From positions 1 to 13,899 of the forward strand of contig JAITHR010000282.1 of the NCBI GenBank assembly GCA_031279895.1: 13,899 bases of DNA, given 5' to 3'. Of this stretch, positions 1 through 13,515 are shown piece by piece. The stretch is from Spirochaetaceae bacterium. Lineage in GTDB: Bacteria > Spirochaetota > Spirochaetia > Treponematales > Breznakiellaceae. Position numbers and translations under genes: made by a program. The notes under the pieces were generated by a model. That model did no database searches. It worked only from the letters and a program-made list of their open reading frames with translations, and had not been told where the DNA came from. Each line of letters starts with the position of its first letter. Position 1 is the stretch's first letter.

Positions 1-250
1 TGCGCGGCGCTCAGCCCCGCACAACGACAAGCCCCTTACTACGCACAACAACGCGCCGCTCCCAAACCGCCCGTCGTTGCGCGAAGCGTAGCCGCGCCTG
101 AGTAGCAGAAAGCGAAGTAACCGGACAAGGTGTTGCACCATTAAGAGGCAACAGGCGGCCTTGCTAGAACAGCCGGAGGCTGCGGAACCGCCGGCGGCTG
201 CGTCTGAGGCACGGGGCGGGACGCTTATGAAGCCGTCGGAGACGGGCGCG
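1..250 (-). repeat. Mosaic intergenic repeat, copy A
   Basis: The copy carries the shared landmarks of the family: a GGTGTTGCACC core at 129-139, the GCGAAGCGTAGCCGCGC palindrome near 80-97, and AACAGCCGGAGGCTGCGG near 168-185. It is in the minus orientation relative to the word GGTGCAACACC. It closely resembles copy D at 8775-8963. It continues past the left edge of the window. Confidence 0.85.
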
Positions 251-402
251 GGACGCTTATATAAAAAAGTAAAAAAAAGATGAAATTCTATCGAATTGGG
301 CTTGATAAGTGCAGGTGCGTACATATATTTAGTGTATTGTTTGTCCAAAGTCTGCCCTGAGGGGCTCGCGACATCAAAAATAAAAATCATTCCGTAATGC
401 AT
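1..402 (-). CDS. Partial ORF, paralogue of the right-edge phase-variable ORF; runs off the window
   Basis: Read from the ATG at 402 this frame stays open for all 134 codons to the window edge. The first ~45 residues are not repeat-derived: MHYGMIFIFDVASPSG, then DKQYTKYMYAPALIKPNSIE, then a Phe/Leu-rich stretch. From about base 250 downward the frame enters mosaic repeat copy A and becomes Arg/Cys-rich (KAACC..VQHLVRLL..RRGYASR). The N-terminal part aligns with the ORF at 13660 in that ORF's second frame (KYVHGLLLVKHNSIKFYL), with many differences at third codon positions, which favours a real protein family. A promoter lies directly upstream. I do not recognise the family. Only the non-repeat head is likely to be ancestral; the tail may be a read-through fusion. 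Function unknown. Confidence 0.4.
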   Translation of the reverse strand, partial: MHYGMIFIFDVASPSGQTLDKQYTKYMYAPALIKPNSIEFHLFFTFLYKRPAPVSDGFISVPPRASDAAAGGSAASGCSSKAACCLLMVQHLVRLLRFLLLRRGYASRNDGRFGSGALLCVVRGLSLCGAERRA

Positions 403-436
403 AATACCACTATAGCATACTCCGCCGAAAACGCAA
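403..436 (-). promoter_or_regulatory. Promoter with ATG 6 bases after the -10 (leaderless candidate)
   Basis: On the minus strand the -10 TATAGT (409-414) is preceded by TGC, an extended -10, with a weak -35 TTGCGT (431-436) 16 bases upstream. Only six bases separate the -10 from the ATG at 402, so transcription would begin at or next to the start codon. No Shine-Dalgarno sequence fits. Confidence 0.5.
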
Positions 437-446
437 GCTTTTTTTT

Positions 447-830
447 CAGCCTCCGGCTGTTTCAAACATGGCCGCCTGTTGTTTCCAAATAGTGCAACAC
501 CCTGTCCGCCGGCGGCGCCGGAGGCACAGCAAGGCCGCTTGTTGTTTCCAAGCGGTGCAACACCTTGTCCGGTTAGGGGGCTTGCACAGCCCAGGCGCGG
601 CTTACGCTTCGCGCAGCCTCCGGCGGCTTGTGCGTTGTTGTGCGTTGTTCGGGGCGGGTCGTTGTTCGGGCGCGGCAAACCAATCTCCGCCCGCTTAGAG
701 GCGCTCCGCAGGAAGCTTATGGAACAGCCGGAGACGGCGGGGCGCTGCGCGGCAAAGCTGACCGTCGTTGTTCAGAGCGCTTCGCAGGAAGCTTTTGTGC
801 CTCCGCCGCCGGCGGCGGCTTTTTGGAAGC
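447..830 (+). repeat. Mosaic intergenic repeat, copy B, internally duplicated
   Basis: It starts with CAGCCTCCGGCTGTTTCAAA and contains the core word twice (491-501 with one change, and 554-564), so the GGCCGC..TGTTGTTTCCAA segment is tandemly duplicated about 62 bases apart. The part at about 743-780 (GCGCGGCAAAGC through CGTCGTTGTTC) is the reverse complement of a segment near 13548-13592 in copy F, with a short deletion, showing that modules have been inverted. The right end enters the 3' end of the rhomboid gene. No convincing gene lies in 403-771; the short plus-strand ORFs here are repeat-derived. Confidence 0.85.
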
Positions 831-1365
831 CGAAGAGACTTCCGCAGACGCCGCCTATGATATGGGCGAACTCGGAGATGTTGTTGTCGTCAAACGAGGA
901 AACCGCCTCGCCGCCCACGTAGAGGATAAGCACGAGAATAAAGGTCAGGGGGATCTCCCCTTTGCGGAAGTTGGTGAAAGACGCGAGGAGTATCAGCATG
1001 AACACGACGCCGCTTGCGCCCAGCAGGGCCGTGGAGAAGAAAAACACGTTAAGCACGCCGGTAACGAGCGCGGTAACGAACATCATAAAGAGGAGGGACA
1101 GGGAGCCGTAGTGTTCCTCCAGCATGGGGCCGAGGATGAGAAGCAGGGAGAAGTTGCTGATAAAGTGGAAGAAGTCCGCGTGGCCTATGGCGTGGGTAAC
1201 GAGCGTAACGATGTTGCGGATGCTGCGGAGGGAAAAGTCTTCCTTTCCCGGCACGAGAAACCACCGTTCCATAAGATCCGGTAACACGGTGAGCGAAAGG
1301 ATAAGGGCGCCAAGGCTTATGAGGGTGTAGGTAAGCACCACCGGCGAGTTGTAGGTAATACGCAT
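772..1365 (-). CDS. Rhomboid-family intramembrane serine protease
   Basis: A polytopic membrane protein of 197 residues. Signatures of the rhomboid family are visible: H(62)-A-D-F-F-H-F-I-S-N(71) with a following G79-P-M-L-E, the catalytic serine motif G116-A-S118-G119, and the partner histidine in F166-A-H168-I-I-G-G in the last helix. Six hydrophobic segments can be traced. Rhomboids cleave substrates within or beside the membrane; the substrate here is unknown. The ORF ends with about 17 residues (QKAAAGGGGTKASCEAL) encoded by mosaic repeat copy B, so the natural C-terminus was probably replaced just after the last helix; the catalytic core is intact. It lies 48 bases downstream of exonuclease III on the same strand, with a hairpin between them and its own -10. 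The start has no Shine-Dalgarno sequence. Confidence 0.88.
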   Translation of the reverse strand: MRITYNSPVVLTYTLISLGALILSLTVLPDLMERWFLVPGKEDFSLRSIRNIVTLVTHAIGHADFFHFISNFSLLLILGPMLEEHYGSLSLLFMMFVTALVTGVLNVFFFSTALLGASGVVFMLILLASFTNFRKGEIPLTFILVLILYVGGEAVSSFDDNNISEFAHIIGGVCGSLFGFQKAAAGGGGTKASCEAL

Positions 1366-1380
1366 TGGAGAAGTATACCA
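1366..1380 (-). promoter_or_regulatory. Extended -10 adjoining the rhomboid start codon
   Basis: On the minus strand TGGTATACT (TATACT at 1372-1377, with TG at 1379-1380) is an extended -10 with six bases before the ATG at 1365. I see no good -35. The upstream sequence lacks a purine-rich ribosome site, so a leaderless message is the simplest reading. Confidence 0.45.
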
Positions 1381-1386
1381 CGGGAA

Positions 1387-1410
1387 CCGCGGGACGCGCC
1401 ATACCCGCGG
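1387..1410 (-). terminator. GC-rich hairpin after exonuclease III
   Basis: CCGCGGG (1387-1393) and CCCGCGG (1404-1410) form a perfect 7-bp inverted repeat with a 10-base loop, between the exoA stop codon and the rhomboid -10. There is no T-run, so it may be a weak terminator, a pause site or an mRNA-stabilising stem. Confidence 0.4.
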
Positions 1411-1413
1411 AGT

Positions 1414-2193
1414 TCAGAGGATATGGAGTTCCACAGGGCAGTGGTCAGAGCCTTTTATGTCGGCACGGATGATGCTTTTCTCCACCCGCCACATGAAAGC
1501 GCGGTCAACGCAGTGGTAGTCGAGGCGCCACCCTATATTTCTCGATCGGGCGTTCGCCGAGTAGGACCACCAGGTATAGTGCTTGGGCTCCCCCGGATGA
1601 AAGGCGCGGAAGGTGTCGACATACCCCGCGCCGCAAAATATATCCATCCACTCGCGCTCCTCCGGCAAATAACCGGCGGACTTCTCGTTTTCTTTGGGAT
1701 ATTCCAGATCAATGGCGTTGTGGGCGATATTGTAGTCCCCGCACAGTACCACGTGGCGCCGGCAGGCCACGAGCGTATCGCAGCGCGTCTTTATGGCCCG
1801 GCAAAACCCCATCTTGTAGTCAAGGCGCGCCCCGAAGTCCCGCGAATTGGGGAAGTACGCGGCGATAAGCACGAAATCCCGAAAGTCCGCCTGCAATACC
1901 CGCCCCTCGTCGTCGAAATAGGGTATGCCCATGGGCTTTACGCTCCGCGGCTTTATGCGCGTATAGAGCGTTACCCCGGAATACCCGCGTTTCTTGGCGC
2001 AGCTCCAATAGGAACGGTAGCGCCGCTCCTTTTTGTCCGTCGGATTTAGCATTTCTTTGGGAAGCTGGTCCGGCGTGGCTCTGGTTTCCTGAAGGCACAG
2101 CACCTCCGGCGCATCGGACCTCAGCCACTCCATAAGACCCATCCTCTTTTCCGCCGAGCGGATACCGTTCACATTCCACGATACAATACGCAT
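1414..2193 (-). CDS. exoA: Exodeoxyribonuclease III (AP endonuclease family)
   Basis: A DNA-repair nuclease of the ExoIII/EEP family that removes nucleotides 3'->5' from duplex DNA and cuts at abasic sites in base-excision repair. Family landmarks in order: MRIVSWNVNGIRS at the N-terminus (Asn7), LCLQETR with metal-binding Glu36, CGDYNIAH, the R-L-D-Y block, and GSDHCPVEL at the C-terminus with catalytic His251. The length of 259 residues is normal. The frame is open 12 codons further upstream, but the family begins at this MRIVSWN and a promoter sits directly before it, so the start is placed at 2193. It is followed on the same strand by the rhomboid gene. All the key residues I can check are present. 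Confidence 0.95.
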   Translation of the reverse strand: MRIVSWNVNGIRSAEKRMGLMEWLRSDAPEVLCLQETRATPDQLPKEMLNPTDKKERRYRSYWSCAKKRGYSGVTLYTRIKPRSVKPMGIPYFDDEGRVLQADFRDFVLIAAYFPNSRDFGARLDYKMGFCRAIKTRCDTLVACRRHVVLCGDYNIAHNAIDLEYPKENEKSAGYLPEEREWMDIFCGAGYVDTFRAFHPGEPKHYTWWSYSANARSRNIGWRLDYHCVDRAFMWRVEKSIIRADIKGSDHCPVELHIL

Positions 2194-2229
2194 TTTATCA
2201 CTATAGCTCCGGCGCCTATGGGTTCGCAA
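2194..2229 (-). promoter_or_regulatory. exoA promoter, leaderless arrangement
   Basis: On the minus strand: -35 TTGCGA (2224-2229), an 18-base spacer, -10 TATAGT (2200-2205), then six bases to the ATG at 2193. A GGAG lies 13 bases from the ATG, overlapping the promoter, too far to act as a normal ribosome site. Transcription would start at or beside the A of the ATG. Confidence 0.55.
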
Positions 2230-2263
2230 GCGTCTTTTGGCCCGTCACCACCCCGCCGGCGGC

Positions 2264-2630
2264 GGGAGGCACAGCCTCCGCAGCCTCCGGCTGTTTCAAA
2301 CATGGCCGCCCCGTCTCCGACGGTTTCAAGCAAGGCCGCTTGTTGTTTCCGAATGGTGCAACACCTTGTCCGGTGAGCGGGCTTGATATTAGCCAGGCGC
2401 GGCTACGCTTCGCGCAGCGGCGGACGGTTCGGGAGCTATGCGTTGTTGTGCGCGGTAAGGGGCGGCGCGTTGTTCGGGGCGCGGCGCGTCTTGCGCTACC
2501 GGGGGGTCTGGGGGAACCGGTTCCCCCAGCCGCCGGAGGCAGCTAGTCTGTCGTTGCCCGCTTTGCCGCGCTTCGCATGACGCTTATGGAACAGCCGGAG
2601 GCTGCGTCGGAGACGGGCCGGAGTCGTCTC
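2264..2630 (+). repeat. Mosaic intergenic repeat, copy C
   Basis: It contains CAGCCTCCGGCTGTTTCAAA (about 2281), the core GGTGCAACACC at 2355-2365, the GGCGCGGCTACGCTTCGCGC segment near 2396, and the GCTTATGGAACAGCCGGAGG word near 2583. It fills the space between exoA and the prophage remnant and supplies the last ~25 codons of the frame at 2543-2995. The reading frame that is open in copies A, D and F has a TGA here right after GTCCGG. No gene is supported in the 2194-2620 gap. Confidence 0.85.
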
Positions 2631-2995
2631 ATTCTGCCTTGGAGGTGCGCGGATATGCCGTGCGGATGCAGGCCAGCGCCGGTAATAACATACTCAACGC
2701 CCCACCATACCAGCCGGTCTGACGGCCTCTGGGTTGCCGGGTCCGCCACGAAAAACGTCAGAGCGCGGGGCGCGACAACCTCAATGACGTCTCTCTTTCT
2801 CGTCCCTTCGGGCAGTATCCGCATGGTTTCACCGGAGGGCAGGGCTGTACCGTTCCCCTGAAAGGCGTGTCCAGCACCGCTCCGTCCGTCCATGTGCCGT
2901 TTATGTATGAACCGGCGCGATTTCACTTTACGAGGTCTACCGACCGACCGCATGAGGCTCATCCTAGCCCGACCCGCCATTGGAGCGTATGACAT
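2625..2995 (-). pseudogene. Phage head-closure/adaptor-like gene, frameshifted, tail lost to the repeat
   Basis: The frame from 2995 gives GRPRKVKSRRFIHK, then a non-phage-like stretch, then MRILPEGTRKRDVIEVVAP, FFVADPATQRPSDRLVWWG and EYVITGAGLHPHG. This resembles small virion proteins of the head-tail joining type. Between about 2900 and 2830 another frame reads GTWTDGAVLDTPFRGTVQP, which continues the family pattern much better, so a first frameshift near 2900 appears to be reversed by a second near 2825-2850. The last ~25 codons (RPVSDAASGCS onward) are encoded by repeat copy C. The family assignment is by pattern memory. It is almost certainly inactive. Confidence 0.6.
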
Positions 2996-3001
2996 TATGC
3001 G

Positions 3002-3556
3002 TTACCGCCCCCGCATGGCGCCGATATCAATGAGCGGCCTGCCGGTCTTTTCCTTTTTGACGGTAATGCCGGAATTGGGACAAAACTCCCCTCGCGGATA
3101 AACGTTTTCACCCCTTCCTCCGCGAACTGTCCGATCCGGCTTACTGCGGTTCGGACGTCCAGTTTTCCCTCTGATACCAGCGCGAAAAATTTATCAACGG
3201 TGTTTTTGATAGCGCCCTCTTTGTTTTCTATCCGGCCTCTTATGAAGGGGCGGGGTGATATCCGCCATTTGCCGTTCCGAAAGACGCCAAACTTGTTGGC
3301 CACTGCGTACTCGGCTATGGATATGCCGTCCGTGGAACCCGCCCCTTCGGGAATACCGACTTTAACCCGCAATAGTCGCAATATTTTTCCGTATCTCCCA
3401 AGTCCCTGGCCGTATCGACGATGCCTCACGGATTGCCGCCACCCGCCCTGTTTTCTCAAAGCCGGACGTAAGCAGTCCGCAGCCGGACATTTTCCTGTAC
3501 AAACCAAAGTTCGGCGTGTAAAAATCAAAGTCCGCCGCAGCCTCCGGCTGTTTCAT
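3002..3556 (-). pseudogene. HK97 gp10-like tail-completion gene, broken in three frames
   Basis: Pieces in consecutive frames assemble into one phage protein: DFDFYTPNFGLYRKMSG and SGFEKTGRVAAIREAS (3362-3556); then RYGQGLGRYGKILRLLRVKV, SIAEYAVANKFGVFRNGKW, ISPRPFIRGRIENK and VRTAVSRIGQFAEEGVKTFI (about 3085-3450); then VKKEKTGRPLIDIGAMRGR to a TAA at 3002-3004. The AeyAxxNxFG, PPRPFxR-like and RPLIDxGxMR motifs are typical of gp10-like tail-completion proteins. Two single-base indels, near 3450 and near 3078, explain the breaks. The first codons (MKQPEAAA) come from the repeat scrap at 3538, which supplies both an ATG and a new N-terminus. Confidence 0.7.
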
Positions 3557-3562
3557 AAACTT
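3538..3562 (+). repeat. Short scrap of the mosaic repeat inside the prophage remnant
   Basis: CAGCCTCCGGCTGTTTCATA followed by AACTTC matches, with one change, the 26-base segments at 13098-13123 and 13516-13541. On the minus strand it reads ATGAAACAGCCGGAGG, giving a start codon fused to the phage-derived frame that follows. Confidence 0.8.
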
Positions 3563-3566
3563 CCCG

Positions 3567-3936
3567 CTACGCGCCTTTATCCCGTGCCTTCGGCTTTATC
3601 CCGAGCTTCTCCATCCGCTGAAGTATCACCAGTCTAAGTTCCTCGCGAGTCTCCTCCTGAAACCACTTCCGAAGCGTGTCGGGGTTGACGCACTCATCAA
3701 TCAGTTCGTAGGCGGTGTTTACCGGAACCTCTTTGAGGCTTTTGGTTTTATTATCTCTGTCCGCGCCGGATGCGCCGCCATAATTTCCCGCTCGTCATCG
3801 GTTACCTCGTTGACCCCGGGCAGTAACGAAACCTGCCCTCTGGTAAGCCGTATCTTTTCCAGCTCTGTTCGGCGGCGGCTACAAGCGGGACTGTTTTTAA
3901 GTATGCACCGTTTAACGGCTTGTATTTCAACAGCAC
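3567..3936 (-). pseudogene. Phage virion-associated gene with LPGVN motif, frameshifted
   Basis: A strong ribosome site, TAGGAGG (3944-3950), precedes a GTG at 3936 that opens VLLKYKPLNGAYLKTVPLVA. The homology then moves frame to GQVSLLPGVNEVTDDERE and IMAAHPA, and moves again near 3770 to KSLKEVPVNTAYELIDECVN and DTLRKWFQEETREELRLVIL, ending at the TAG at 3567-3569. The LLPGVNxVxDxxW-like motif followed by a Lys/Glu-rich helical tail recurs in small structural genes of Mu-like and related phages. Two indels (roughly 3850-3880 and about 3770) break the frame. It is inactive as read. The exact family is not certain. Confidence 0.6.
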
Positions 3937-3947
3937 GGTTTAACCTC

Positions 3948-4064
3948 CTAAACTCCGTCCGCAAAGGCGAACGCCATAGAGTAATAGATAATGACCCCGG
4001 CGCAGCAGCTGTGGCAGGGTATCGTGAACTCCATGCCCTTCTGTACGGGGTCAAATAAATTCAT
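3948..4064 (-). CDS. 38-residue ORF, phage-associated small hydrophobic protein
   Basis: The ATG at 4064 lies three bases after the stop of the 522-residue gene, and the TAG (3948-3950) overlaps the ribosome site of the following LPGVN gene. The product is MNLFDPVQKGMEF followed by a Cys/His cluster (IPCHSCCAG) and a hydrophobic end (VIIYYSMAFAFADGV). The tight packing with the next gene suggests it belonged to the prophage operon. It could equally be the intact last part of a longer phage gene whose 5' end was lost when the island arrived. No obvious ribosome site precedes it. Function unknown. Confidence 0.4.
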   Translation of the reverse strand: MNLFDPVQKGMEFTIPCHSCCAGVIIYYSMAFAFADGV

Positions 4065-4067
4065 ACT

Positions 4068-5636
4068 TTATGCGTTTAACCTCTCCCATTCAGCATCCAA
4101 ATCGCGGTTTAGGGTATCCATATCTAGCATATTACCCCGGTAGATAGCCATTATCTCGCGCAAACCGGAAAAGGCAAACTTTTGCCATGCAACCAGATTA
4201 AGATGTAAAGCAAACGTAAGAACATTGCCGCCAGATCGTATTCCAGCGTCTATTGCGTCAACAATGCAAAGAGAACCATGTCCCACGACAAGCATACGCC
4301 TTAATTCAGGCTGATTGCCAAAGGGCATTGATTCCTTCCAGGTTTTCTTATGGTAGAATTTTCTCTTGATAGTAAAAGATACCCTGATTATTATTTCGTT
4401 AAGAAAAACAGGAATTGCCATTGCCGCTCCATGGCGGGCATCATAGCCTTCCTGAAACATTTTTGTTGAAAATTCCGCTAATGTTTTTTGGTCGCCGCCA
4501 ACATTGAAAGAACCGAAATCGCATAGTTGGAACAGCTCAAAAAAAGGCATCGGTATACCGCTGCCTCTTGTATTTTTGTGACCTCTTGTACCGCTTGAGC
4601 CTGCCAAGTCTGACATTATGTGTCCCAACCAATTAAAAAACCCACAAAATAATTTTGCAATAAAATTATCGCCCTGTAATCTGAAATTACCGTCCTTGTT
4701 TTCTATTCTGATTATTTGTCCATCTGAAATAATAGATGTAGTATTGGTAAATTGGTCCAGAAGAGAAAAAAATAATCCTATTATGTCAGGAGCATGACCT
4801 AATGATTTTAGGTGATGATTAACAGGAGCCATACTCAATTGTTCGGTTGTTAATCCAAGATCAGCAGCATAGCGGGCGTCATAGTTCACTTTGAATCTAT
4901 GTTCAAGATAACCGATACAGCTTGCAATTCCTTCAGGCGCCTTGTTTTGCAAAGCTGACTTGGCTTTTTTATCAGCATTAAAAACAAAGCCAGTAAATTT
5001 TTCAACCAGATTATCCGCCATTTTGTCTGTCCAGTTTCCAAGTTTACTTTTCCCCGGCATTCCAACAAAAAAGGCATCTATTAGGCCGCATACAACACCA
5101 CTTGAAGCCGCGATAATGTAATCCCATTTATCGCAGTGGGCTTTTTTCATGGTATAGTCATCTTTTATACGTTTTGCTATTTCCGCACGATCTTTTGCCG
5201 TCATTAACTCCTGGAATGGATCAACGGACAGATCTATGTGGTGTTTTTCGGCATAACCTTCGATATTGGCGAGATAATCTTCCCACGATACACTTTCACC
5301 AAAATCAATAGTATCTACATGGTCAAAGGTATATGCTTTAATTGACTGCACCTCTTTTTCTGATAAATTCAGCATTTTATCTATAGCGGAAGTATTCACA
5401 TTCGTATAATCAATGACATCAGTATTCACTCCTTGTTTTTGTAGTAATACTTCGCTTTGTTCCAGTAGCGATTCCAATTCGGAGAGGTTACTATCGTTAA
5501 TTTGTGACAAAACGCCCAAACCTTGATTAATTTGGTCTGTCAGATTACCCAAAGCCTGCTGCTGGTGGCGCTGTGCCAAACCAGCTTTCCCGGCATCATC
5601 CATGGTTTCACGAGAGATTCTTTTTTCATCATGCAT
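4068..5636 (-). CDS. 522-residue membrane-associated protein of the accessory island, unknown function
   Basis: The N-terminal ~110 residues are Gln/Asn/Leu-rich and helical (HQQQALGNLTDQINQGLGVL and on), possibly a coiled coil. One clear hydrophobic helix lies at about 173-193 (YIIAASSGVVCGLIDAFFVG); further hydrophobic stretches lie near 283-296, 325-342, 405-420 and 472-492. Three GH...D motifs stand out: HHLKSLGHAPDIIG (274-287), LGHIMSDLAGSSG (337-349) and VGHGSLCIVDAID (451-463), a pattern that could bind metal or form a membrane-embedded active site. I recall similar uncharacterised proteins in gut bacteria but no name. The start at 5636 has AAAGGGG seven bases upstream. It follows the 554-residue gene by 50 bases with a hairpin between them, so the two are probably co-transcribed. 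Composition is AT-richer than the flanking chromosome, which suggests transfer. Confidence 0.8.
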   Translation of the reverse strand: MHDEKRISRETMDDAGKAGLAQRHQQQALGNLTDQINQGLGVLSQINDSNLSELESLLEQSEVLLQKQGVNTDVIDYTNVNTSAIDKMLNLSEKEVQSIKAYTFDHVDTIDFGESVSWEDYLANIEGYAEKHHIDLSVDPFQELMTAKDRAEIAKRIKDDYTMKKAHCDKWDYIIAASSGVVCGLIDAFFVGMPGKSKLGNWTDKMADNLVEKFTGFVFNADKKAKSALQNKAPEGIASCIGYLEHRFKVNYDARYAADLGLTTEQLSMAPVNHHLKSLGHAPDIIGLFFSLLDQFTNTTSIISDGQIIRIENKDGNFRLQGDNFIAKLFCGFFNWLGHIMSDLAGSSGTRGHKNTRGSGIPMPFFELFQLCDFGSFNVGGDQKTLAEFSTKMFQEGYDARHGAAMAIPVFLNEIIIRVSFTIKRKFYHKKTWKESMPFGNQPELRRMLVVGHGSLCIVDAIDAGIRSGGNVLTFALHLNLVAWQKFAFSGLREIMAIYRGNMLDMDTLNRDLDAEWERLNA

Positions 5637-5652
5637 AAATTATCCCCTTTGC

Positions 5653-5675
5653 CTGCCCGCAAATAACACGGGCAG
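5653..5675 (-). terminator. Intergenic hairpin between the two island genes
   Basis: CTGCCCG (5653-5659) and CGGGCAG (5669-5675) pair perfectly around a 9-base AT-rich loop, between the stop of the 554-aa gene and the ribosome site of the 522-aa gene. No T-run follows on the minus strand. It may be a partial terminator or an RNA-processing stem that sets unequal expression of the two proteins. Confidence 0.45.
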
Positions 5676-5686
5676 ACGATCAAAAG

Positions 5687-7351
5687 TTATTCACCTGTCA
5701 ATGCCCCTTTTGCCTTGCCCAAAAGGTTTTTCCCAAAAGCGTTCATCGAAGCAAGTCCGGCAGTTTTCACATCGAAGTAGCCGAAGTTATCCAGAACACC
5801 GTGAATTTCTTCCAGTTTTTCCAACGGAAGGTCAAAGTTCAAAATCCATTCGATTCTAGACTGCCCATCGGAACTCTTCGTTTTGGTTTCATCAAATCCC
5901 GCCATGACAATCGGACGGTATTTTTGTTGCGTCGGTTTGCTGGTCAATTCATCAAAACGAGTCTTGTTGAGTTTTTGTGGGAGTTTGGCTATAACTGCTT
6001 CTTTTTCCGCATTAGCCATGCGTCCGCTCACCGTCAAAGTGCCCTGAGCAAGCATTAAAAGCTGCGTTTTCAGTTTTTGGATATGGATTGCAGTAACTTG
6101 TCCTTTTGACAATTCCGCTGACAATTTTACTGCAATATAATTTACGTCCTCGATGAGAAAATTGAGGGCTTTTTGTGAGTTGCGGATAATACCTTGAAGC
6201 ATAAGCTCACGCTTGCCATTTGCCTCGATTTCATTAATACCGGTTAAGTATTTAACGCCTTTAAACGCGGCAAAGCCAAGCCCCGCAGCGATTGCGAGCG
6301 GTAAAAAACTTCCAAAAAGAAGCAATTGACCGCCGATTATCCACATTGATCCGGAAAAAAACAAGGTCGCCGCTGGAACGCCGACAGCTACGCCTTTTGC
6401 CATAAGGTCTTTGAACGTGTTCTCAATTTGTTTATCAGTTTGCCGTTGTTTGATAATTTCTTCATCAGTTTTGAATTTTTCAAAGAAAAATTCAATTTGC
6501 GCATCGGTGACATCAAGCAGTTTTTGGAGTTCTTTCAGAAAAGAATCATTGGACCACCGCGAAAAATCACAATCGTCCTTTTCAGTTTCCCTGATTCTGA
6601 ACAACCCGATGACATCCTGCATCAGCGATTTCTGCAATTCCACAAGGCTGCCTTCATCAACATTTGCACAAAGAAACTTGACCAGTGACGCGTTGTCTTC
6701 AAGACTGGCAGTGTCCATGATGTATTGGCGCAAAATGAAACGATTTTCATTGTCAATATTGTTACGAACAATGATGCCGATTATTTCGGCATACTCTTTA
6801 TTGTTGACAGTCTCCCTGTCAGAATGCAGATAGTTGGTGACAATTTTAATATATGCCATTCTCACGGCAATATCCATATCTGACAATGATTGCAATTGAT
6901 GTGAAGTTTGGAAACTTCCTTCTTCACCGCCCTCCGCGATAATGGCATCAAGCAGTTCGGAAAATTTGTCATGCCCGAAGGACGGGTCTTGAATGTTCAG
7001 AATGATTTGTCCGTCTTTGCCGAAAACATCAACGATTTTTGTCGTTGTTACCTTTCCTTTTTCATCGGTCTTTTCGATGATTTTATGTTCCGATTTTGAT
7101 ATGTCTTTATAGGAAATTGCCACCGGCTTTGCAGATCCCCGGTAATAAAGCGTATCTCCGGTAAACACAAGTCCTTTAGCGCTTCCGAGGATAGTCGTCG
7201 TATCCACAATGGCAACGATTAGGCCCGGATCAATACCCGTGGCAATAGACGTGACGGCATTATTGAGTTTCTTTTCCTCAATGACTGGCGCGATATAAAC
7301 TCTGCTTCCCAGAGCTTTAGCGCCATCTTTGATAATTTGTTCAACTGACAT
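5687..7351 (-). CDS. 554-residue PH-like / TerB-like membrane protein of the accessory island
   Basis: Segments in order: a beta-rich N-terminal domain at about 35-145 (GLIVAIVDTTTILGSAKGLV, FTGDTLYYRG, then alternating strands) that looks like a bacterial PH/short-PH fold; a helical domain at about 155-290 (DMDIAVRMAYIKIVTNYLHS, DRETVNNKEYAEIIG) reminiscent of the TerB/tellurite-resistance fold; a membrane hairpin at about 318-366 (GVPAATLFFSG...LLLFGSFLPLAIAAGLG); and a helical, charged C-terminal part to 554. The domain names are by pattern only. PH-like plus TerB-like plus membrane segments suggests an envelope stress or defence sensor, with the 522-aa protein as partner. The start at 7351 has AGGGGG six bases upstream. 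A composite palindrome lies about 30-58 bases upstream. Intact; AT-richer than the chromosome around it. Confidence 0.8.
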   Translation of the reverse strand: MSVEQIIKDGAKALGSRVYIAPVIEEKKLNNAVTSIATGIDPGLIVAIVDTTTILGSAKGLVFTGDTLYYRGSAKPVAISYKDISKSEHKIIEKTDEKGKVTTTKIVDVFGKDGQIILNIQDPSFGHDKFSELLDAIIAEGGEEGSFQTSHQLQSLSDMDIAVRMAYIKIVTNYLHSDRETVNNKEYAEIIGIIVRNNIDNENRFILRQYIMDTASLEDNASLVKFLCANVDEGSLVELQKSLMQDVIGLFRIRETEKDDCDFSRWSNDSFLKELQKLLDVTDAQIEFFFEKFKTDEEIIKQRQTDKQIENTFKDLMAKGVAVGVPAATLFFSGSMWIIGGQLLLFGSFLPLAIAAGLGFAAFKGVKYLTGINEIEANGKRELMLQGIIRNSQKALNFLIEDVNYIAVKLSAELSKGQVTAIHIQKLKTQLLMLAQGTLTVSGRMANAEKEAVIAKLPQKLNKTRFDELTSKPTQQKYRPIVMAGFDETKTKSSDGQSRIEWILNFDLPLEKLEEIHGVLDNFGYFDVKTAGLASMNAFGKNLLGKAKGALTGE

Positions 7352-7380
7352 ATTTGTCCCCCTGTCGTAATGTTAAGTTT

Positions 7381-7409
7381 ATAATCCACAGGTAAAAACC
7401 TGAAATTAT
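7381..7409. promoter_or_regulatory. Composite inverted repeat, candidate operator
   Basis: The arms are ATAAT (7381-7385) and ATTAT (7405-7409) outside, CAGGT (7389-7393) and ACCTG (7398-7402) inside, with a four-A centre on the plus strand. It lies between the end of the WYL regulator and the 554-aa gene. On the minus strand its edge includes the -10-like TATAAA. It is a plausible binding site for the WYL regulator. Confidence 0.4.
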
Positions 7410-7423
7410 CATAACCGCTCAAA

Positions 7424-8426
7424 TCATTCATACATCCCCCGCACCTTCTCCGCCTCTGACTTCACCATGTCTACCAGCTCTGCCGGTCCCAGTGCCTTTA
7501 CCATGCGGCCCTGACCCAGAACCCAGCGCAAAACTTCCGGCATCTGGGTCGTGGTAAACTTCACATACACCGAACCGTCATCATTGGACCTGACTTCCTG
7601 CGTACTGTGCCACTGCCGGTCAAGGGCGTAGGTCACAATTTCCTTACTTATCAACAATTCCACCATATATGGAGTGCGGAACGAGGCCCACACTCCTATT
7701 TCTTTGTCAAAATACGCTTCCGGTTTAAAATCAGCGGGAATTCCAAAATTCTGTTTGGTCATTTTGACGTTTTTCATTCGGGAAAAAGAGAACAATCGTA
7801 GCTCCTGCCTCTTATGGCAGAAGCCGATGAAATACCAGTTACCGCTCTGGCTGACAGCGTGATAGGGGGTCGGCCATTCGGAATGTGTAGTTGCTTTGTT
7901 CAAGGGACCGGTATTCAAAACAGACGGTCTGGTGTTGTTTTAACGCCTTGAAAACTGTCTTAAATACCTCCAGATGTATCATTCCTGCATGGCCAGGAAT
8001 AAAAGTCATCTGCCTGGTCAAAAAGTTCGCTTGCACATTAACATTATCCGGTAGGCATTGGACGATTTTTCCAAAGATGTTTCGCAAGTCCTTTTCAAGA
8101 GGGGTATTCCGGTACTCCTCAAGCATCCGGTCGAACAAAGCGATGGAAAATAACTCCCCTTCGGTGAGGGGGACACTTTTGATGAAGAAGTTCGGTTCGG
8201 TGTAGTAGTAGCCCCGGCGGGCGGGACTATACTTGATGGGCGCTCCGTACATAGCCCGCATATACTCGATGTCCCGCTGGATGGTCCGGGAATTGACCTC
8301 GGCAAGGGCGGCCAGGCTGTCCGTGTTAGGGTACTTCCCGACCCTGATAGCCTCGTCTATCACCAAGAGACGCCTTGCTCTTACTTTTTGCTCATTGGAG
8401 CGTATTCCACTACTCATATCTTCCAA
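7424..8426 (-). pseudogene. HTH-WYL transcriptional regulator with a +1 frameshift
   Basis: Two overlapping frames make one protein of about 330 residues. The first (8426 to 7839) has an N-terminal winged helix (RARRLLVIDEAIRVGKYPNT, LAALAEVNSRTIQRDIEYMR, RRGYYYTEP) and the beginning of a WYL domain (TVCFEYRSLEQSNYTFRMAD). The second (7918 to 7424) continues with PYHAVSQSGNWYFIGFCHKR, RLFSFSRMKNVKMT and a C-terminal ligand/oligomer part. The join is at a run of five C on the minus strand (G5 at 7865-7869): four would give ADPYHAV in one frame. WYL regulators often control phage-defence islands, and this gene heads the island. The start is either TTG at 8426 or ATG at 8417. The extra base could be a real lesion, a switchable tract, or a sequencing error; if an error, the gene is intact. 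Confidence 0.85.
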
Positions 8427-8461
8427 TTTACAACTCTTGCTACGTCAAATAATGTCGCAAC

Positions 8462-8471
8462 AGAATATTCT
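8462..8471. promoter_or_regulatory. Perfect 10-bp palindrome upstream of the WYL regulator
   Basis: AGAATATTCT lies 36-45 bases before the TTG start at 8426. On the minus strand it sits between a possible -35 (TTTACT) and -10 (CATTAT) 18 bases apart. It could be an autoregulatory site, but short AT palindromes occur by chance. Confidence 0.25.
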
Positions 8472-8669
8472 CAGTAAAATTCCCCTGAATTTTGGGACAA
8501 GTTTGGACTCCCAGAGCTTCCGCTCCTATCCTGACAATCAATCAATATACCCAGCCAATCAGATTAATTGAACACAATAGTTAATTATATTGACCATTTA
8601 GATGTTTGTAAAGTGGGTAATATTTTGGTTCAATAGACTTGAATAGACAGGTTAACAGGATGCAAAATT

Positions 8670-8774
8670 ATGGAAAAACAGAAATCAAACGGCCTCCTGG
8701 TTGTTCCACAGATACTCGCAGACAAAATCTTTCATGGGGCGCAACCACGCCCGGACAGCCGCCAGCTGTTTTAA
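8670..8774 (+). CDS. 34-residue ORF at the island/repeat border
   Basis: The product is MEKQKSNGLLVVPQILADKI followed by FHGAQPRPDSRQLF. It starts ten bases after an AGG in an AT-rich stretch and stops at the edge of repeat copy D. TTGACC (near 8610) and TAATAT (near 8628) upstream look promoter-like but are spaced too far apart. Its early codons look protein-like rather than repeat-like. It may be a small gene or the front end of one truncated by the repeat. The rest of 8427-8669 is AT-rich and I see no other gene there. Confidence 0.3.
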   Translation: MEKQKSNGLLVVPQILADKIFHGAQPRPDSRQLF

Positions 8775-8963
8775 ACGGCTTCTGGCGCCGCGCCCCGAAC
8801 AACGACCAACCCCTTACTACGCACAACAACGCACGACTCCCGAACCGCGACCGGCTGCGCGAAGCGTAGCCGCGCCTAAGTAGCAAACAGTGAAGTAACC
8901 GGACACGGTGTTGCACCACTTGGAAGCAACAGGCGGCCATGCTAGAACAGCCGGAGGCTGCGG
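8775..8963 (-). repeat. Mosaic intergenic repeat, copy D
   Basis: It is the cleanest copy, with the core GGTGTTGCACC at 8907-8917, the GCGCGAAGCGTAGCCGCGC palindrome near 8859-8877 and AACAGCCGGAGGCTGCGG at 8946-8963. It begins immediately after the stop codon of the minus-strand gene that ends at 8965, so its CAGCC-TCC-GGCTG hairpin could act as that gene's terminator. On the minus strand it holds an open frame beginning MAACCFQVVQHRVRLLHCLL that also appears in copies A and F. Confidence 0.9.
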
Positions 8964-8964
8964 G

Positions 8965-9630
8965 TTAAGAGGGGAGAATGGCGATGATGTCGCTCCAGGG
9001 GCCGGTTTCCATGTCGGCGTTCACGAAACGCGCCGCCGCATACACCCCCCGGCACTGCGGCGGAAGACTGATAGTGTACACCCGCCGGCGCGTACCTACC
9101 ACCACGGGTAGGCTTTCGGCGCACTGCGGCACCACGAGCATCTCGTCAACCCTGCCGGAAATCTCGTCCACCAGCACACCGTAGGCAAAGTCGACATGAT
9201 GGAGCAGGTGCGGGTCCGCATTCGGCGCAACCGGCGCGACTTTGACCTGTACCTCTTGCTTGTCAATAAGGCTTAACGTAATCCGCGGGGAAAAGTCCGG
9301 CGCCGCGCTGCCGGAAGCGGTGAGCAGGAGGGCGATTTCGTCCGCTTCGGTGAGCGGCGGAGACACGAAAAAACGCTCCCTCGTAAGGTGCATCTTCTCC
9401 TCAAGCGGATTAAACGCCACGCGGCAGAGCGCGTTCAGCACCTCGGTGCGCTCCTCTGACCTTTTCGCCCGCTCAAGCGCCACTTCCGCCAGAAAAATAA
9501 GCGCCTCAAACTCCGCGCTATGAGTCCGGGGTATCCCCCATGAATCGCCTTCCTGCCGCATCTTCTCCAGCCAGACCTTCGCCATACACAAAATACCGTC
9601 ACGGGAACCGGGTAGCCAGTCTGTTCTCAT
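8965..9630 (-). CDS. Conserved hypothetical protein, MRTDWLPG family
   Basis: The product has 221 residues and starts MRTDWLPGSRDGILCMAKVW. The frame extends upstream to a TTG at 9654, but the ATG at 9630 has AAAGGAG eight bases before it and matches the way I recall this family beginning. The N-terminal half is helical (WGIPRTHSAEFEALIFLAEV, then ALERAKRSEERTEV, then EEKMHLTRERFFVSPPLTEA); the C-terminal half is beta-rich and sandwich-like (HHVDFAYGVLVDEIS, RRRVYTISLPPQCRGVYAAA, WSDIIAILPS). I recall related proteins in treponemes, often in several copies per genome, with no assigned function. There is no signal peptide or membrane helix. It stops directly against repeat copy D. Confidence 0.85.
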   Translation of the reverse strand: MRTDWLPGSRDGILCMAKVWLEKMRQEGDSWGIPRTHSAEFEALIFLAEVALERAKRSEERTEVLNALCRVAFNPLEEKMHLTRERFFVSPPLTEADEIALLLTASGSAAPDFSPRITLSLIDKQEVQVKVAPVAPNADPHLLHHVDFAYGVLVDEISGRVDEMLVVPQCAESLPVVVGTRRRVYTISLPPQCRGVYAAARFVNADMETGPWSDIIAILPS

Positions 9631-9722
9631 ACGAAACGCTCCTTTAATCCCCAAACCAAACCGCCAGCTTGAAGATACTGGTAAAACTTTTATTAGAGCC
9701 TAGTCCGAAACGCGGCGGCGTG

Positions 9723-9990
9723 TCAACCGTCTCCGCCCGCCGGCGGCGGGTGGCACATAAGCGTCCTGTGGCGCGGCTCAAAGCGGACAAAGACTGCTTA
9801 GGAGCGCTGGACGGGACGCTGCCGGAACCGTCGGAGACGGGCCGGAGGCTGCCGCGCACAACAACGCACGGCTCCCGAACCGCGACAGGCGGCGCGAAGC
9901 GTAGCCGCGCCTCAACAGCAGCCAGACTGCTCACCGGACACGGTGTTGCACTACTTGGAAACAACAGGCGGCCATGCTGTGCCACCCCCG
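9723..9990 (-). repeat. Mosaic intergenic repeat, copy E
   Basis: The region between the divergent 9630 and cobQ starts is mostly repeat. Landmarks are CGCCGGCGGCGGG near 9740, CGTCGGAGACGGGCCGGAGG near 9829, CGGCGCGAAGCGTAGCCGCG near 9891 and a core with one change at 9942-9952. The frame open in copies A, D and F is closed here by TGA after GTCCGG, as in copy C. At 9655-9722 I see no gene, only the upstream region of the 9630 gene. Confidence 0.8.
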
Positions 9991-10027
9991 CTGGGGGATT
10001 GACCGGCCCGCGGGTTTCGGATAGGCT
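9985..10027 (+). promoter_or_regulatory. cobQ promoter with upstream C5/G5 hairpin
   Basis: -35 TTGACC (9999-10004), a 17-base spacer and a weaker -10 TAGGCT (10022-10027) lie ten bases before the GTG start. CCCCC-GCT-GGGGG (9985-9997) forms a tight stem just upstream of the -35. I see no cobalamin-riboswitch layout; the leader would be only a few bases long. Confidence 0.5.
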
Positions 10028-10037
10028 CTGACCCATT

Positions 10038-11528
10038 GTGGCAAAGACCATTATGATACAGGGAACCGCCTCCAATGTGGGAAAAAGCCTCATTGTCGCG
10101 GCGCTCTGCCGGATTTTCAAACAGGACGGATACCGCGTCGCGCCGTTCAAGGCGCAAAACATGGCGCTTAACTCGTATATCACCGAAGACGGGCTTGAAA
10201 TGGGAAGGGCGCAGGTGGTGCAGGCGGAAGCCGCGGGCATCGCGCCGCTGGTTGACATGAACCCCGTGCTCCTCAAGCCCACAAGCGATACGAAAGCCCA
10301 GGTCATCGTCCACGGCGAAGTCTTCGACAACCTCTCAGCCGCGGATTATTACGCCTACAAACAAACCCTGGCCCCGAAAATACAAGACTCCTTTGAGAGG
10401 CTCAACGCGGACTTCGACATACTGGTCATCGAGGGCGCCGGAAGTCCGGCGGAGATTAACCTTCGGGAAAACGACATCGTGAATATGCACGTGGCGCGAC
10501 TTGCCGGAGCGCCGGTCATCCTCGCCGGGGACATTGACCGCGGCGGCGTGTTTGCCGCGATTGCCGGCACCCTCCTCCTCTTTACCCCGGAAGAGCGGCG
10601 CTTTGTCAAAGGGCTTCTTATTAACAAGTTCCGCGGGAACAGGGCGCTCCTCGAAAGCGGCCTGCGTAAAATCGAAGAGATAGCCTGTGTTCCGGTTCTG
10701 GGGGTGGTTCCCTACCTGTCCGTTGATATTGACGACGAGGACAGCCTCTCGGAACGCTTCCGGCACCGGGACGCGCCCGCGCCGGTGGTTGACATCGCGG
10801 TGCTGCGCCTCCCGCATATCGCCAACTTTACCGACTTTAACGCGCTCAGCCGCATCCCGGGCGCGGGGGTCCGGTATGTTGACCGTCCCGACCGTCTGGG
10901 AAACCCCGATCTCCTGGTCATTCCCGGCACCAAGAACACCATGGCTGACCTGGCGTGGTTGCGGAAAACCGGCTTTGAAAAGCCCGTGAAGACCCTCCAT
11001 TATCAGGCGGGGAAGCCGGTGTTCGGCATCTGCGGGGGGTATCAGATGCTGGGGAAACGACTCTCCGACCCCTGCGGGGTGGAACACGGCGGCGAAATGG
11101 AAGGGCTGGGCCTTCTCAACGCGGAAACCGTTTTCACCAGGGAAAAGGTGCGCACCCGCGCAGCCGGCGTGTTCGCGCCGCTTACCGGTATTCTCGCGCC
11201 CCTCTCCGGCAGACCCGTAGAGGGGTACGAGGTACACATGGGCCTTACCGACACGTTTCACGCGCCGCCTGTGGTCTACTGTAACGGGAAAGCTGACGGG
11301 GCGTTTCAGGACAACGTATACGGCGCGTATATGCACGGCATCTTCGACCTGGAGGGCGAGGCGCTCTTCCACGCCTTGCGGGAAGCCAAAGGCGCGCCGC
11401 GCCCGAAGGACGGGGAACTTACGAGTTTCCACGATTATAAAGAGGCCCAGTACGACGCGCTCGCGGACGGCGTGAGAACTCATGTTGACCTGGGGAAAAT
11501 CTACGCGATCCTTGAGGAAGGGGTATAA
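10038..11528 (+). CDS. cobQ: Cobyric acid synthase (adenosylcobyric acid synthase, glutamine-hydrolysing)
   Basis: It amidates side chains b, d, e and g of adenosylcobyrinic a,c-diamide using ATP and glutamine. The N-terminal synthetase half opens MAKTIMIQGTASNVGKS, with its P-loop-like GTASNVGKS, followed by FKAQNMALNSYITEDGLEMG and LVIEGAGSPAEINL. The C-terminal class-I-like glutamine amidotransferase half has the nucleophile Cys332 in FGICGGYQML and His433 in GAYMHGIFD. The length of 496 residues is normal. The start is GTG at 10038, chosen because the family begins MAKTIMIQGT; an ATG five codons later is possible. Cytoplasmic. cobO follows after ten bases. It is GC-rich like the rest of the chromosome and intact. 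Confidence 0.96.
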   Translation: MAKTIMIQGTASNVGKSLIVAALCRIFKQDGYRVAPFKAQNMALNSYITEDGLEMGRAQVVQAEAAGIAPLVDMNPVLLKPTSDTKAQVIVHGEVFDNLSAADYYAYKQTLAPKIQDSFERLNADFDILVIEGAGSPAEINLRENDIVNMHVARLAGAPVILAGDIDRGGVFAAIAGTLLLFTPEERRFVKGLLINKFRGNRALLESGLRKIEEIACVPVLGVVPYLSVDIDDEDSLSERFRHRDAPAPVVDIAVLRLPHIANFTDFNALSRIPGAGVRYVDRPDRLGNPDLLVIPGTKNTMADLAWLRKTGFEKPVKTLHYQAGKPVFGICGGYQMLGKRLSDPCGVEHGGEMEGLGLLNAETVFTREKVRTRAAGVFAPLTGILAPLSGRPVEGYEVHMGLTDTFHAPPVVYCNGKADGAFQDNVYGAYMHGIFDLEGEALFHALREAKGAPRPKDGELTSFHDYKEAQYDALADGVRTHVDLGKIYAILEEGV

Positions 11529-11538
11529 AGAGGCATAT

Positions 11539-12060
11539 ATGGCGGGACTCATTCACGTCTATACCGGCGACGGTAAAGGCAAAACCACCGCGGCGGCGGG
11601 CCTGTGCGCCCGGGCCAGAGGAAGGGATAAAACCGTGGTGTTCTCCCAGTTCCTGAAAAGCGGCGTTACCGGCGAGGTGGCGTCCCTTGAGAGGCTGGGG
11701 GCGCTGGTTATCCGGTCGGACCTGCGCTTCGGCTTTACCCACGAGATGGACGCGGAAACCGGCGCGGCGTGTCGGGAGGAGCAGGAGCGGCTTTTTTCCC
11801 GCATTATTGCCGCGGTGCGGGAGCCCGCGGCGGACCTCCTCGTGCTGGACGAGGTTCTCGACGCGATGAATGCCGGAATGCTCGAAGAGCGCCTCCTCCG
11901 CTCCTTTCTGGAGGGACGGAACGCGGATCTGGAGGTGGTTATCACCGGAAGACGCCCGGGCGCGTGGCTTATGGAAATGGCGGACTACGTTTCTGACGTG
12001 CGAAAAGTGAAACACCCCTTTGACCGGGGGGTGGCGGCGCGTATCGGGATTGAAAGATGA
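11539..12060 (+). CDS. cobO: Cob(I)yrinic acid a,c-diamide adenosyltransferase (CobO/BtuR family)
   Basis: It transfers the 5'-deoxyadenosyl group of ATP to cob(I)alamin-type corrinoids, supplying the adenosylated substrate that CobQ uses. It starts MAGLIHVYTGDGKGKTT, with the Walker-type loop G10-D-G-K-G-K-T-T17 typical of CobO/BtuR, then VVFSQFLKSG, LLVLDEVLDAMNAG and VVITGRRP, in family order. The length of 173 residues is normal. The frame is open to 11482, inside cobQ, but the ATG at 11539 has AGAGG about six bases upstream and gives the family N-terminus. Its stop overlaps the cbiC start in ATGA (12057-12060), implying translational coupling. Confidence 0.94.
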   Translation: MAGLIHVYTGDGKGKTTAAAGLCARARGRDKTVVFSQFLKSGVTGEVASLERLGALVIRSDLRFGFTHEMDAETGAACREEQERLFSRIIAAVREPAADLLVLDEVLDAMNAGMLEERLLRSFLEGRNADLEVVITGRRPGAWLMEMADYVSDVRKVKHPFDRGVAARIGIER

Positions 12061-12704
12061 CCTACACGGACCCCCAGGAGATAGAGCAGCGCAGTTTTGA
12101 GATTATACGACAGGAACTTGCGCGTCTTGAGGCCGCGGCGGGCCCGCGCCGGCGGGAACTCACCGGCCTTGAGGCCGCGGTGCTGACGCGGGTTATCCAT
12201 ACGAGCGCGGACTTCGACTACTATGAAAATCTGGTGTTTACCCACGACGCGGCGCGGGCCGGGTACGATCTCCTCCGCGCCGGCGCGTGGGTGGTTACCG
12301 ATACCGTGATGGCCTTTTCAGGGATACGCAAACGGAATCTGGAGCGCTACGGCGGGGAGGCGCGGTGTTTCATCGCCGACCGCGACGTGGCGGACGCGGC
12401 GCGTCTCAACGGAGGCACCCGCGCCCGCGCCGGCGTCGACAAGGCCGCGGGGCTTGCGGCGCCGCTCGTCTTTGCCGTGGGGAACGCGCCGACTGCCCTT
12501 ATGCGGATGCGCGAATTATACGACGCGGGACGCTTCTCCCCCCGCATGGTCATAGCCGCGCCTGTGGGCTTTGTCAACGTGGAGGAGTCCAAAGCGCTCT
12601 GCGCCGCGCTGCCGGTTCCCTGCGTCATCGCCTTGGGGAGAAAAGGCGGGAGCGCCGTGGCCGCAGCCGTTATAAACGCCCTCCTTCAGGACTATACGGA
12701 CTAG
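12057..12704 (+). CDS. cbiC: Cobalt-precorrin-8 methylmutase (precorrin-8X methylmutase)
   Basis: It moves the C-11 methyl group to C-12, forming cobyrinic (hydrogenobyrinic) acid in the corrin ring pathway. The catalytic histidine lies in RVIHTSADFDYY (His48). Other family blocks are WVVTDTVMAFSGIRK, VFAVGNAPTAL, PVGFVNVEESK and the glycine-rich GRKGGSAVAAAVINALL near the end. The length of 215 residues is normal. It overlaps cobO by four bases and is the last of three genes in the run; no further cobalamin gene lies in the window, and the downstream neighbour is convergent. With CobO and CobQ it covers non-consecutive steps, so the remaining enzymes must be encoded elsewhere. Whether cobalt is inserted early (CbiC) or late (CobH) cannot be decided here. 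Confidence 0.95.
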   Translation: MTYTDPQEIEQRSFEIIRQELARLEAAAGPRRRELTGLEAAVLTRVIHTSADFDYYENLVFTHDAARAGYDLLRAGAWVVTDTVMAFSGIRKRNLERYGGEARCFIADRDVADAARLNGGTRARAGVDKAAGLAAPLVFAVGNAPTALMRMRELYDAGRFSPRMVIAAPVGFVNVEESKALCAALPVPCVIALGRKGGSAVAAAVINALLQDYTD

Positions 12705-12993: not shown

Positions 12994-13200
12994 CAGCCTC
13001 CGGCTGTTTCAAACATGGCCGCCTGTTGTTTCAAAGTGGTGCAACACCGTGTCCGGTTACTTCACTGTTTACTGTTGAGGCGCGGCTACGCTCCGCGCAG
13101 CCTCCGGCTGTTTCATAAGCTTCCTGTGCGGTGCGCCGAAGCAGTCAACGACTGGTTACAGGCGCGGGGCGGGAATCTGTAGACGAAGGCTGCGGAGACG
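12994..13200 (+). repeat. Mosaic intergenic repeat, copy F, left part
   Basis: It has CAGCCTCCGGCTGTTTCAAA at 12994, the core GGTGCAACACC at 13038-13048 and GGCGCGGCTACGCTCCGCGC near 13080. It contains the frame MAACCFKVVQHRVRLLHCLL shared with copies A and D. Its 26-base end segment (13098-13123) recurs at 13516-13541 on the other side of the large inverted repeat. Confidence 0.88.
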
Positions 13201-13203
13201 GGT

Positions 13204-13515
13204 CGGAGGCGGTTTTGACCCGTAAAACCGTGGTTTCAGCGCGAAATCCCCGGCAAAACGCGGTGTTGTTGAGACGTATTTTCAGGTCTAAACGCCGGCG
13301 TTTGAAGGCTACCCGCCGGCGTTTCAGGTCTACCCGCCGGCGTTTGAACTCTAAACGCGGGCGTTTGAAGGCTACCCGCCGGCGTTTGAAGGCTACCCGC
13401 CGGCGTTTGAAGGCTACCCGCCGGCGTTTAGCCCTGAAAATACGTCTCGACAACACCGCGTTTCACCGGGGATTTCGCGCTGAAACCACGGTTTTACGGG
13501 TCAACACCGCCTCCG
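13204..13515. repeat. 83-bp inverted repeat enclosing a seven-unit 21-bp tandem array
   Basis: The left arm 13204-13286 and right arm 13433-13515 are reverse complements with 79 of 83 positions matching and no gaps (every pair sums to 26719). The 146-base middle is the tandem array plus a few bases. An RNA or single strand from this region would form a very stable long hairpin. The outside flanks are 26-base direct repeats of the mosaic family (13098-13123, 13516-13541). No transposase is present. Confidence 0.95.
13291..13430 (+). repeat. Seven-unit, 21-bp minisatellite
   Basis: The units share GCCGGCGTTT (one reads GCGGGCGTTT) at 13294, 13315, 13336, 13357, 13378, 13399 and 13420, exactly 21 bases apart, with the linker GAAGGCTACCC or a variant. 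The first unit includes the perfect palindrome AAACGCCGGCGTTT. Because 21 is a multiple of three, both strands stay open and read as Arg-rich seven-residue repeats; I do not treat that as proof of coding. Confidence 0.95.

Follow-up and report, generated by a model that had tools for sequence, protein, structure and literature searches.

The 13,899-nucleotide contig JAITHR010000282.1 of a Spirochaetaceae bacterium (assembly GCA_031279895.1), analyzed here over its whole length and called the window, carries a well-preserved example of the Bunzi antiphage system, bnzA-bnzB, with a broken regulator. Judged from their sequences, the two genes are almost certainly the Bunzi pair. For the fuller reading, that the Bunzi system lies in a probably acquired, AT-richer island behind a WYL regulator gene that is frame-broken in the assembly, we put the probability at roughly 90%. 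Both proteins matched the PADLOC models for Bunzi nearly from end to end (Table 1). Residues 1 to 535 of BnzA covered positions 2 to 534 of the 544 in PDLC03833, and residues 5 to 520 of BnzB covered positions 5 to 500 of the 504 in PDLC03834. The genes lie 50 nucleotides apart on the minus strand, each as a single full-length frame, and they agree with Bunzi in gene order, strand, and near-full length of both products. The models also matched every member of the aligned families, 54 of 54 for BnzA (aligned from 86 proteins found) and 55 of 55 for BnzB (aligned from 120 listed matches of 1,244 found), the window's own proteins being included in both sets. A first-pass annotation had proposed a phage defense locus, which these matches bear out. 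It had also called the system undescribed, with no match to a named defense system; that is ruled out by the nearly full-length matches, and as the discovery of a new system the locus does not stand. Its alternative of an envelope stress island, and likewise a tellurite stress island, found no support in searches of Pfam, PHROGs, and NCBIfam.

Table 1. Features of the window, with positions counted from its first nucleotide
Feature	Coordinates	Strand	Evidence
Possible phage head protein, weak	2543..2995	-	PHROG 939, E 0.0011
Prophage remnant, neck/tail-completion protein, beside island	2995..3528	-	PHROG 222, E 2.3e-17
bnzB, 522 amino acids	4068..5636	-	PADLOC PDLC03834, E 1.6e-181
bnzA, 554 amino acids	5687..7351	-	PADLOC PDLC03833, E 2.3e-117
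Split WYL gene, 3' part (end of WYL and WCX)	7424..7918	-	Pfam WCX, E 7.1e-13, and WYL, E 8.2e-11, above cutoff
Split WYL gene, 5' part (helix-turn-helix [HTH] and start of WYL)	7839..8426	-	PADLOC WYL, E 3.2e-21
Sigma-70-like promoter upstream of regulator	8584..8612	-	TTTACA, 17, TATAAT; 11/12; consensus match only
Dispersed repeat, right island edge	8784..8963		61 matching places in genome, itself included

Bunzi was reportedly first described by Millman et al. in 2022. It is listed as BnzA/BnzB in a table of one paper (PMC11206119), is described in another as a frequent passenger of IncHI1 plasmids in Salmonella (PMC11305592), and has its mechanism given as "Unknown" in a table of a 2026 review (PMC12926258). 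In a literature search that lay mostly outside subscription papers and preprints, no paper title on Bunzi announced a mechanism.

The two genes are closely linked wherever a nearly full-length BnzA was examined. In all ten such loci (the window, L002, L003, L024, L026, L030, L031, L090, L091, and L092), bnzA is followed directly by bnzB in the same orientation; the families are thus not mostly apart, though BnzB relatives have other partners too. Apart from the window, seven loci were found by the BnzA query alone, L024 by both queries, and L026 by the BnzB query. L090, L091, and L092 are IMG/VR viral contigs, and in L003 type I restriction genes come after the pair. A single-sequence search of named genome contigs gave two Bunzi loci. 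In L002 (2470 to 4180), from Lactiplantibacillus xiangfangensis, BnzA is split into two open reading frames (ORFs) of 406 and 157 amino acids. Two features set the window apart from Bunzi in general: the WYL regulator gene upstream, seen in 2 of the 10 loci, and a shortened BnzA membrane segment, which is common to the 8 closest rows of the BnzA alignment (A1).

Within the phylum, the system is sparse. Among 392 genomes, that of the window included, nearly full-length BnzA was found in 3, and 13 more had a partial match only. These partial matches (13 of the 16 matching genomes, at 48.3 bits or less) were left out of the Bunzi count; larger stretches from seven of the 13 genomes (L035 to L041) were scanned with profiles, L037 alone gene by gene. 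BnzB was matched in 4 of 58 relatives, own genome included, and in none of the 5 other genomes of the genus that were searched (62 to 81% complete). Among the 58 relatives, distant BnzB matches in G070 and G310 (loci L033 and L034) were both missed by the BnzB profile built for this analysis, as was a BnzB relative in G086 (L032), which the PADLOC BnzB model matched at E 5.3e-30. Since no BnzB match came from the five other genus genomes and nearly full-length BnzA from only 3 of 392 phylum genomes, we regard Bunzi as accessory here.

The stretch from 4068 to 8426 has a G+C content of 43.2% against 58.4% for the remainder of the window, as the first-pass annotation had noticed, and all of its ORFs (bnzB, bnzA, and the two-frame WYL gene) are on the minus strand. 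The prophage remnant that had been placed next to the island is represented by a neck/tail-completion protein (Table 1). When the window was compared by blastn (E ≤ 1e-10) with four contig stretches of genus relatives, similarity ended at 2237 and resumed only at 8981 to 9660. The prophage pieces and the island lie between 2237 and 8981 and had no match in those four stretches, which are short contigs that also lack the genes right of 9660. On the left flank are an ORF of 197 amino acids (772 to 1365, rhomboid-like by eye) and an exonuclease-like ORF (1414 to 2229, also by eye); the two adjoin in all three of the five other genus genomes in which the latter was found. The genome to which the window belongs, as contig C134, measures 1.88 Mb in 292 contigs and is 75% complete. 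The Bunzi pair probably arrived as an accessory island with a higher AT content.

The regulator was described in the first-pass annotation as an HTH-WYL gene heading three same-strand genes. It is indeed of the WYL type and on the minus strand, but the gene is split into two parts that overlap in different frames. The 5' part, with a likely ATG start near 8417 by eye, matched Pfam HTH_11 (E 0.0016) and WYL (E 0.004), both below the cutoff. Homologs in the genomes G414, G413, and G310, at 57 to 65% identity, are single frames of 328 to 347 amino acids. From the assembly alone, the frame break may be real or may be an assembly or sequencing error. The promoter listed in Table 1 is the best of 17 promoter-like sites between 3950 and 8800, where shuffled sequences gave 9.1 (standard deviation, 3.9). 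The gene resembles BrxR- and CapW-type regulators in its order of HTH, WYL, and WCX and in lying upstream of a defense operon on the same strand; it differs from them in its split reading frame. At the settings used, no inverted pairs of at least 10 nucleotides within 60 nucleotides occurred between 7300 and 8760. According to PMC9122601, whose main text mentions neither Bunzi nor dynamin, WYL regulators accompany diverse defense systems, and an upstream inverted-repeat operator was present for 193 of 347 BrxR homologs; such an operator is not required of every member. The locus adds a Bunzi case with a WYL regulator. In L002, the second such case, the WYL protein is more distantly related (PF13280, E 4.9e-11); its gene ends 428 nucleotides before BnzA, with an ORF of 94 amino acids between them. 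No WYL relatives were found on viral contigs.

It might be argued that the island is decayed and nonfunctional, the pair being silent, the regulator broken, and the neighboring phage genes mere remnants. The frame break in the WYL gene, the prophage fragments, and the many repeats around the island would fit such a state. However, bnzA and bnzB each have one full-length frame and match their families strongly, and losing a repressor does not necessarily switch them off, so that we consider decay improbable.

The architecture first proposed for the 554-residue BnzA holds for its PH-like domain and its membrane segment and has weak support for its TerB-like part. The protein is laid out as a PH-like domain at about residues 17 to 140, a weakly TerB-like helical part at about 143 to 296, a hydrophobic segment at about 321 to 363, and then long helices (379 to 455) followed by strands and a helix. 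The predicted model had a mean predicted local distance difference test (pLDDT) score of 82.7 and no Foldseek match in the PDB at E ≤ 0.001; the PH-like fold was supported by a moderate fold comparison score. PF05099 (TerB) was matched by none of the 54 aligned BnzA proteins at E ≤ 0.01, and fold and profile comparisons of this part scored weakly; a table in PMC10952713 lists the PF05099 TerB domain for Shango and Bunzi. A hydrophobic window of 19 residues was present in 53 of the 54 aligned BnzA proteins and in all 55 aligned BnzB proteins, in agreement with the earlier view that both proteins are membrane associated. Common ancestry of BnzA and BnzB was considered and rejected, with an hhalign probability of only 0.4%.

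BnzB has a long N-terminal helix (residues 9 to 67) and a helical core (118 to 521) that contains hydrophobic segments as well as conserved His/Asp motifs, which include H274, H275, H281, H339, and D343. Its predicted model had a mean pLDDT of 87.5 and a predicted template modeling score of 0.70, and no Foldseek match was found in the PDB or BFVD at E ≤ 0.001. Across the 55 aligned BnzB proteins, none of them below 46% identity to that of the window, nine residues were at least 95% conserved: H274, H275, H281, D294, N335, H339, D343, N413, and E414. Counterparts of H274, H281, H339, and D343 were present in all 15 BnzB-family genes of the examined loci, diverged ones included, giving a core of H-6-H ... 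H-3-D in 15 of 15; position 275 was His in 10 and Arg in 5. These four residues are the ones to which the locus points for tests of mechanism.

In light of these features, our tentative proposal, for which the odds fall short of even, is that BnzA acts as a membrane sensor that switches on BnzB as a membrane effector, so that the infected cell is stopped. Here we keep to the sensor and effector pair of the first-pass annotation, which remains an inference. BnzA would lie at the inner face of the membrane by way of its hydrophobic segment, its PH-like and TerB-like domains would sense infection, and it would then switch on BnzB, a predicted multihelix membrane protein. The conserved His/Asp motifs of BnzB may form a metal or catalytic site, and BnzB would damage or remodel the membrane and thereby stop the infected cell from releasing phage. 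If intact, the WYL protein would regulate the operon in the way that BrxR and CapW regulate other systems; barring a sequencing error at the frame break, this control is probably missing or changed in the window copy.

YdjM proteins (PF04307) are annotated as metal-dependent hydrolases. BnzB could be pictured as a metal-dependent hydrolase like these, embedded in the membrane, whose targets would be membrane lipids once BnzA has signaled infection. The order of the His/Asp motifs is similar in the two, H(H/R)xxSLxH ... HxxSD ... G ... P in BnzB and HRxxTHS ... SHxxxD ... G ... PF in YdjM, and the core is invariant in the 15 locus genes. A longer, loose regular expression matched 37 of 55 aligned BnzB proteins and 9 of 16 YdjM fragments. 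It matched none of the 206 other proteins fetched, 3 of 11,000 shuffled BnzB sequences, and, among 365 distinct genes of the loci, 6, every one a BnzB gene. However, this expression was written after the motifs had been seen, and it misses 18 of the 55 aligned BnzB proteins and 9 of the 15 BnzB genes of the loci. The spacing of the first motif also differs, H-6-H in BnzB against about H-4-H in YdjM, and there was no statistical profile support: hhalign gave a probability of 0.6%, although its single alignment sits exactly on the second motif, BnzB had no match to PF04307 in Pfam at E ≤ 1, and there was no fold match. As a relative of YdjM, BnzB therefore failed the profile test, and we consider a hydrolase of this kind distinctly unlikely.

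BnzB relatives range wider than Bunzi. BnzB matched 491 plasmid records, in one of which the match covered 80% or more of the query. On one IncHI2A plasmid (L027) and in the spirochete G086 (L032), the partner of the BnzB relative is a protein of 175 to 189 amino acids that aligns to the membrane segment of BnzA (hhalign probability of 97%; E 2.9e-11 and 8.8e-11) and consists of little beyond BnzA's glycine-rich membrane segment, together with helices. The L027 small protein was matched in 472 plasmid records, adjacency to a BnzB relative having been checked in L027 alone. In L027 this small BnzA-like membrane protein and the BnzB relative (8082 to 10044) are near ter genes. Such natural smaller pairs on conjugative plasmids offer material for tests of mechanism. 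A different partner was seen on one Lactiplantibacillus plasmid (L025) and in the phage NatCom_3357 (L028), where it matches PDC-M09A (E 1.4e-70 and 3.9e-70, respectively). In the latter, a human gut phage (3294 to 5847), and on the plasmid (7980 to 10533), the BnzB-family gene is followed by the PDC-M09A gene of 369 amino acids. All of these pairs are like Bunzi in having a BnzB-family protein in an adjacent pair, but the partner is either PDC-M09A or a protein without the PH-like and TerB-like parts. PDC-M09A was rejected as a BnzA homolog (hhalign probability of 2.9% for the L025 protein); weak matches to its model were given by 1 of the 54 aligned BnzA proteins (E 3.3e-4) and by the L024 BnzA (E 0.0014). 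In a Streptococcus suis phage record (L029, 7010 to 9005), a BnzB relative (E 4.3e-62) comes shortly after a sigma-70 region 4 protein and lies just upstream of an ESX/type VII-like cluster.

The small partners also bear on a mechanism without chemistry, in which BnzB forms or gates a pore that BnzA opens upon sensing infection, so that the cell is depolarized. The multihelix, membrane-like model of BnzB and partners that amount to little beyond BnzA's glycine-rich membrane segment, together with helices, are both consistent with a pore. The conserved His/Asp/Asn/Glu set, however, exceeds what a simple pore would need, and we rate this possibility as somewhat unlikely.

A further set of likenesses leads to dynamin-type defense (LeoA and LeoBC). 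Two tandem dynamin-like GTPases (PF00350, E 1.7e-14 and 6.1e-14) begin 3 bp after the closest intact homolog of the WYL regulator (G414, L084); this arrangement occupies 5274 to 9262 of a stretch from a related spirochete. In L087, an ORF of 120 amino acids separates the WYL gene from a downstream GTPase with matches to MMR_HSR1, Dynamin_N, and IIGP. GTPases thus followed WYL genes in two of the six relatives fetched for their surroundings (L084 to L089). In L086, the next gene, of 405 amino acids, had no PADLOC or Pfam match, and in L088 two of the genes after WYL (260 and 530 amino acids) had no PADLOC match; the L085 contig ends on the downstream side of WYL, and the downstream genes of L089, being on the other strand, were left out of the scan. 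In a seventh relative, L037, the gene after WYL likewise had no PADLOC or Pfam match. There, proteins of 473, 702, 1354 (ankyrin-like by eye), and 245 amino acids follow WYL on the same strand (111 to 9985), the last of which matched the BnzA profile at E 1.5e-7. On the protein side, the PADLOC LeoBC model was matched by 23 of the 54 aligned BnzA proteins (E ≤ 0.01; best, 3.5e-7) against 1 of 55 BnzB proteins. A profile comparison of BnzA with Treponema LeoBC-type proteins (39 of 120 listed proteins) aligned the N-terminal TerB-like part only, at 41.5%, and a common TerB-like N-terminal domain is possible. Common ancestry of BnzB with LeoBC-type proteins was rejected (hhalign probability of 0.4%). 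A LeoBC family search in 198 genomes gave no usable count, its GTPase part matching 196 of the 198 and all 14 controls, and the two strongest loci were read.

These links could be taken to mean that the pair protects the membrane, by repair or scaffolding as is imaginable for dynamin-like systems, and does not kill the cell. Both the LeoBC matches of the aligned BnzA proteins and the position of the closest WYL homolog before two dynamin-like GTPases would favor protection. However, the window's own BnzA did not match LeoBC in PADLOC, and neither protein of the pair matched a GTPase family in Pfam at E ≤ 1. The BnzA-LeoBC link may, moreover, rest on hydrophobic-glycine and helix composition, because PDC-M09A proteins match LeoBC too (the L027 small partner and the PDC-M09A proteins gave E 2.7e-4, 4.1e-4, and 1.3e-4). 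Membrane protection therefore appears very unlikely to us.

The wider BnzB family and the possible exchange of the WYL regulator are the parts that deserve specialist attention. They could be joined in one conjecture, which we ourselves consider unlikely: BnzB would be a membrane-embedded His/Asp enzyme, probably metal dependent, that serves as the common effector of several defense pairs. The partner would supply the membrane segment, with exchangeable sensor domains (PH-like and TerB-like in Bunzi, PDC-M09A elsewhere, and absent from the small plasmid pairs), and one spirochete WYL subfamily would have been swapped between Bunzi and dynamin-type operons.

The remainder of the window is rich in repeats. 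Copies of the dispersed repeat of about 180 nucleotides lie at 6 to 185, 8784 to 8963, and 9819 to 9998, with inverted copies near 2325 to 2487 and 13008 to 13142. To the right of the island, a protein of 229 amino acids (8965 to 9654) without a Pfam match above the cutoff belongs to a multicopy family, with 9 matches in its own genome and presence in six of six genus genomes, own included. Beyond it are cobalamin-type genes (10038 to 12704), CobQ-, CobA-, and CbiC-like by eye. Tandem 21-nucleotide units at 13259 to 13450 lie within a 97-nucleotide inverted repeat whose arms (13204 to 13300 and 13419 to 13515) are 95% complementary.

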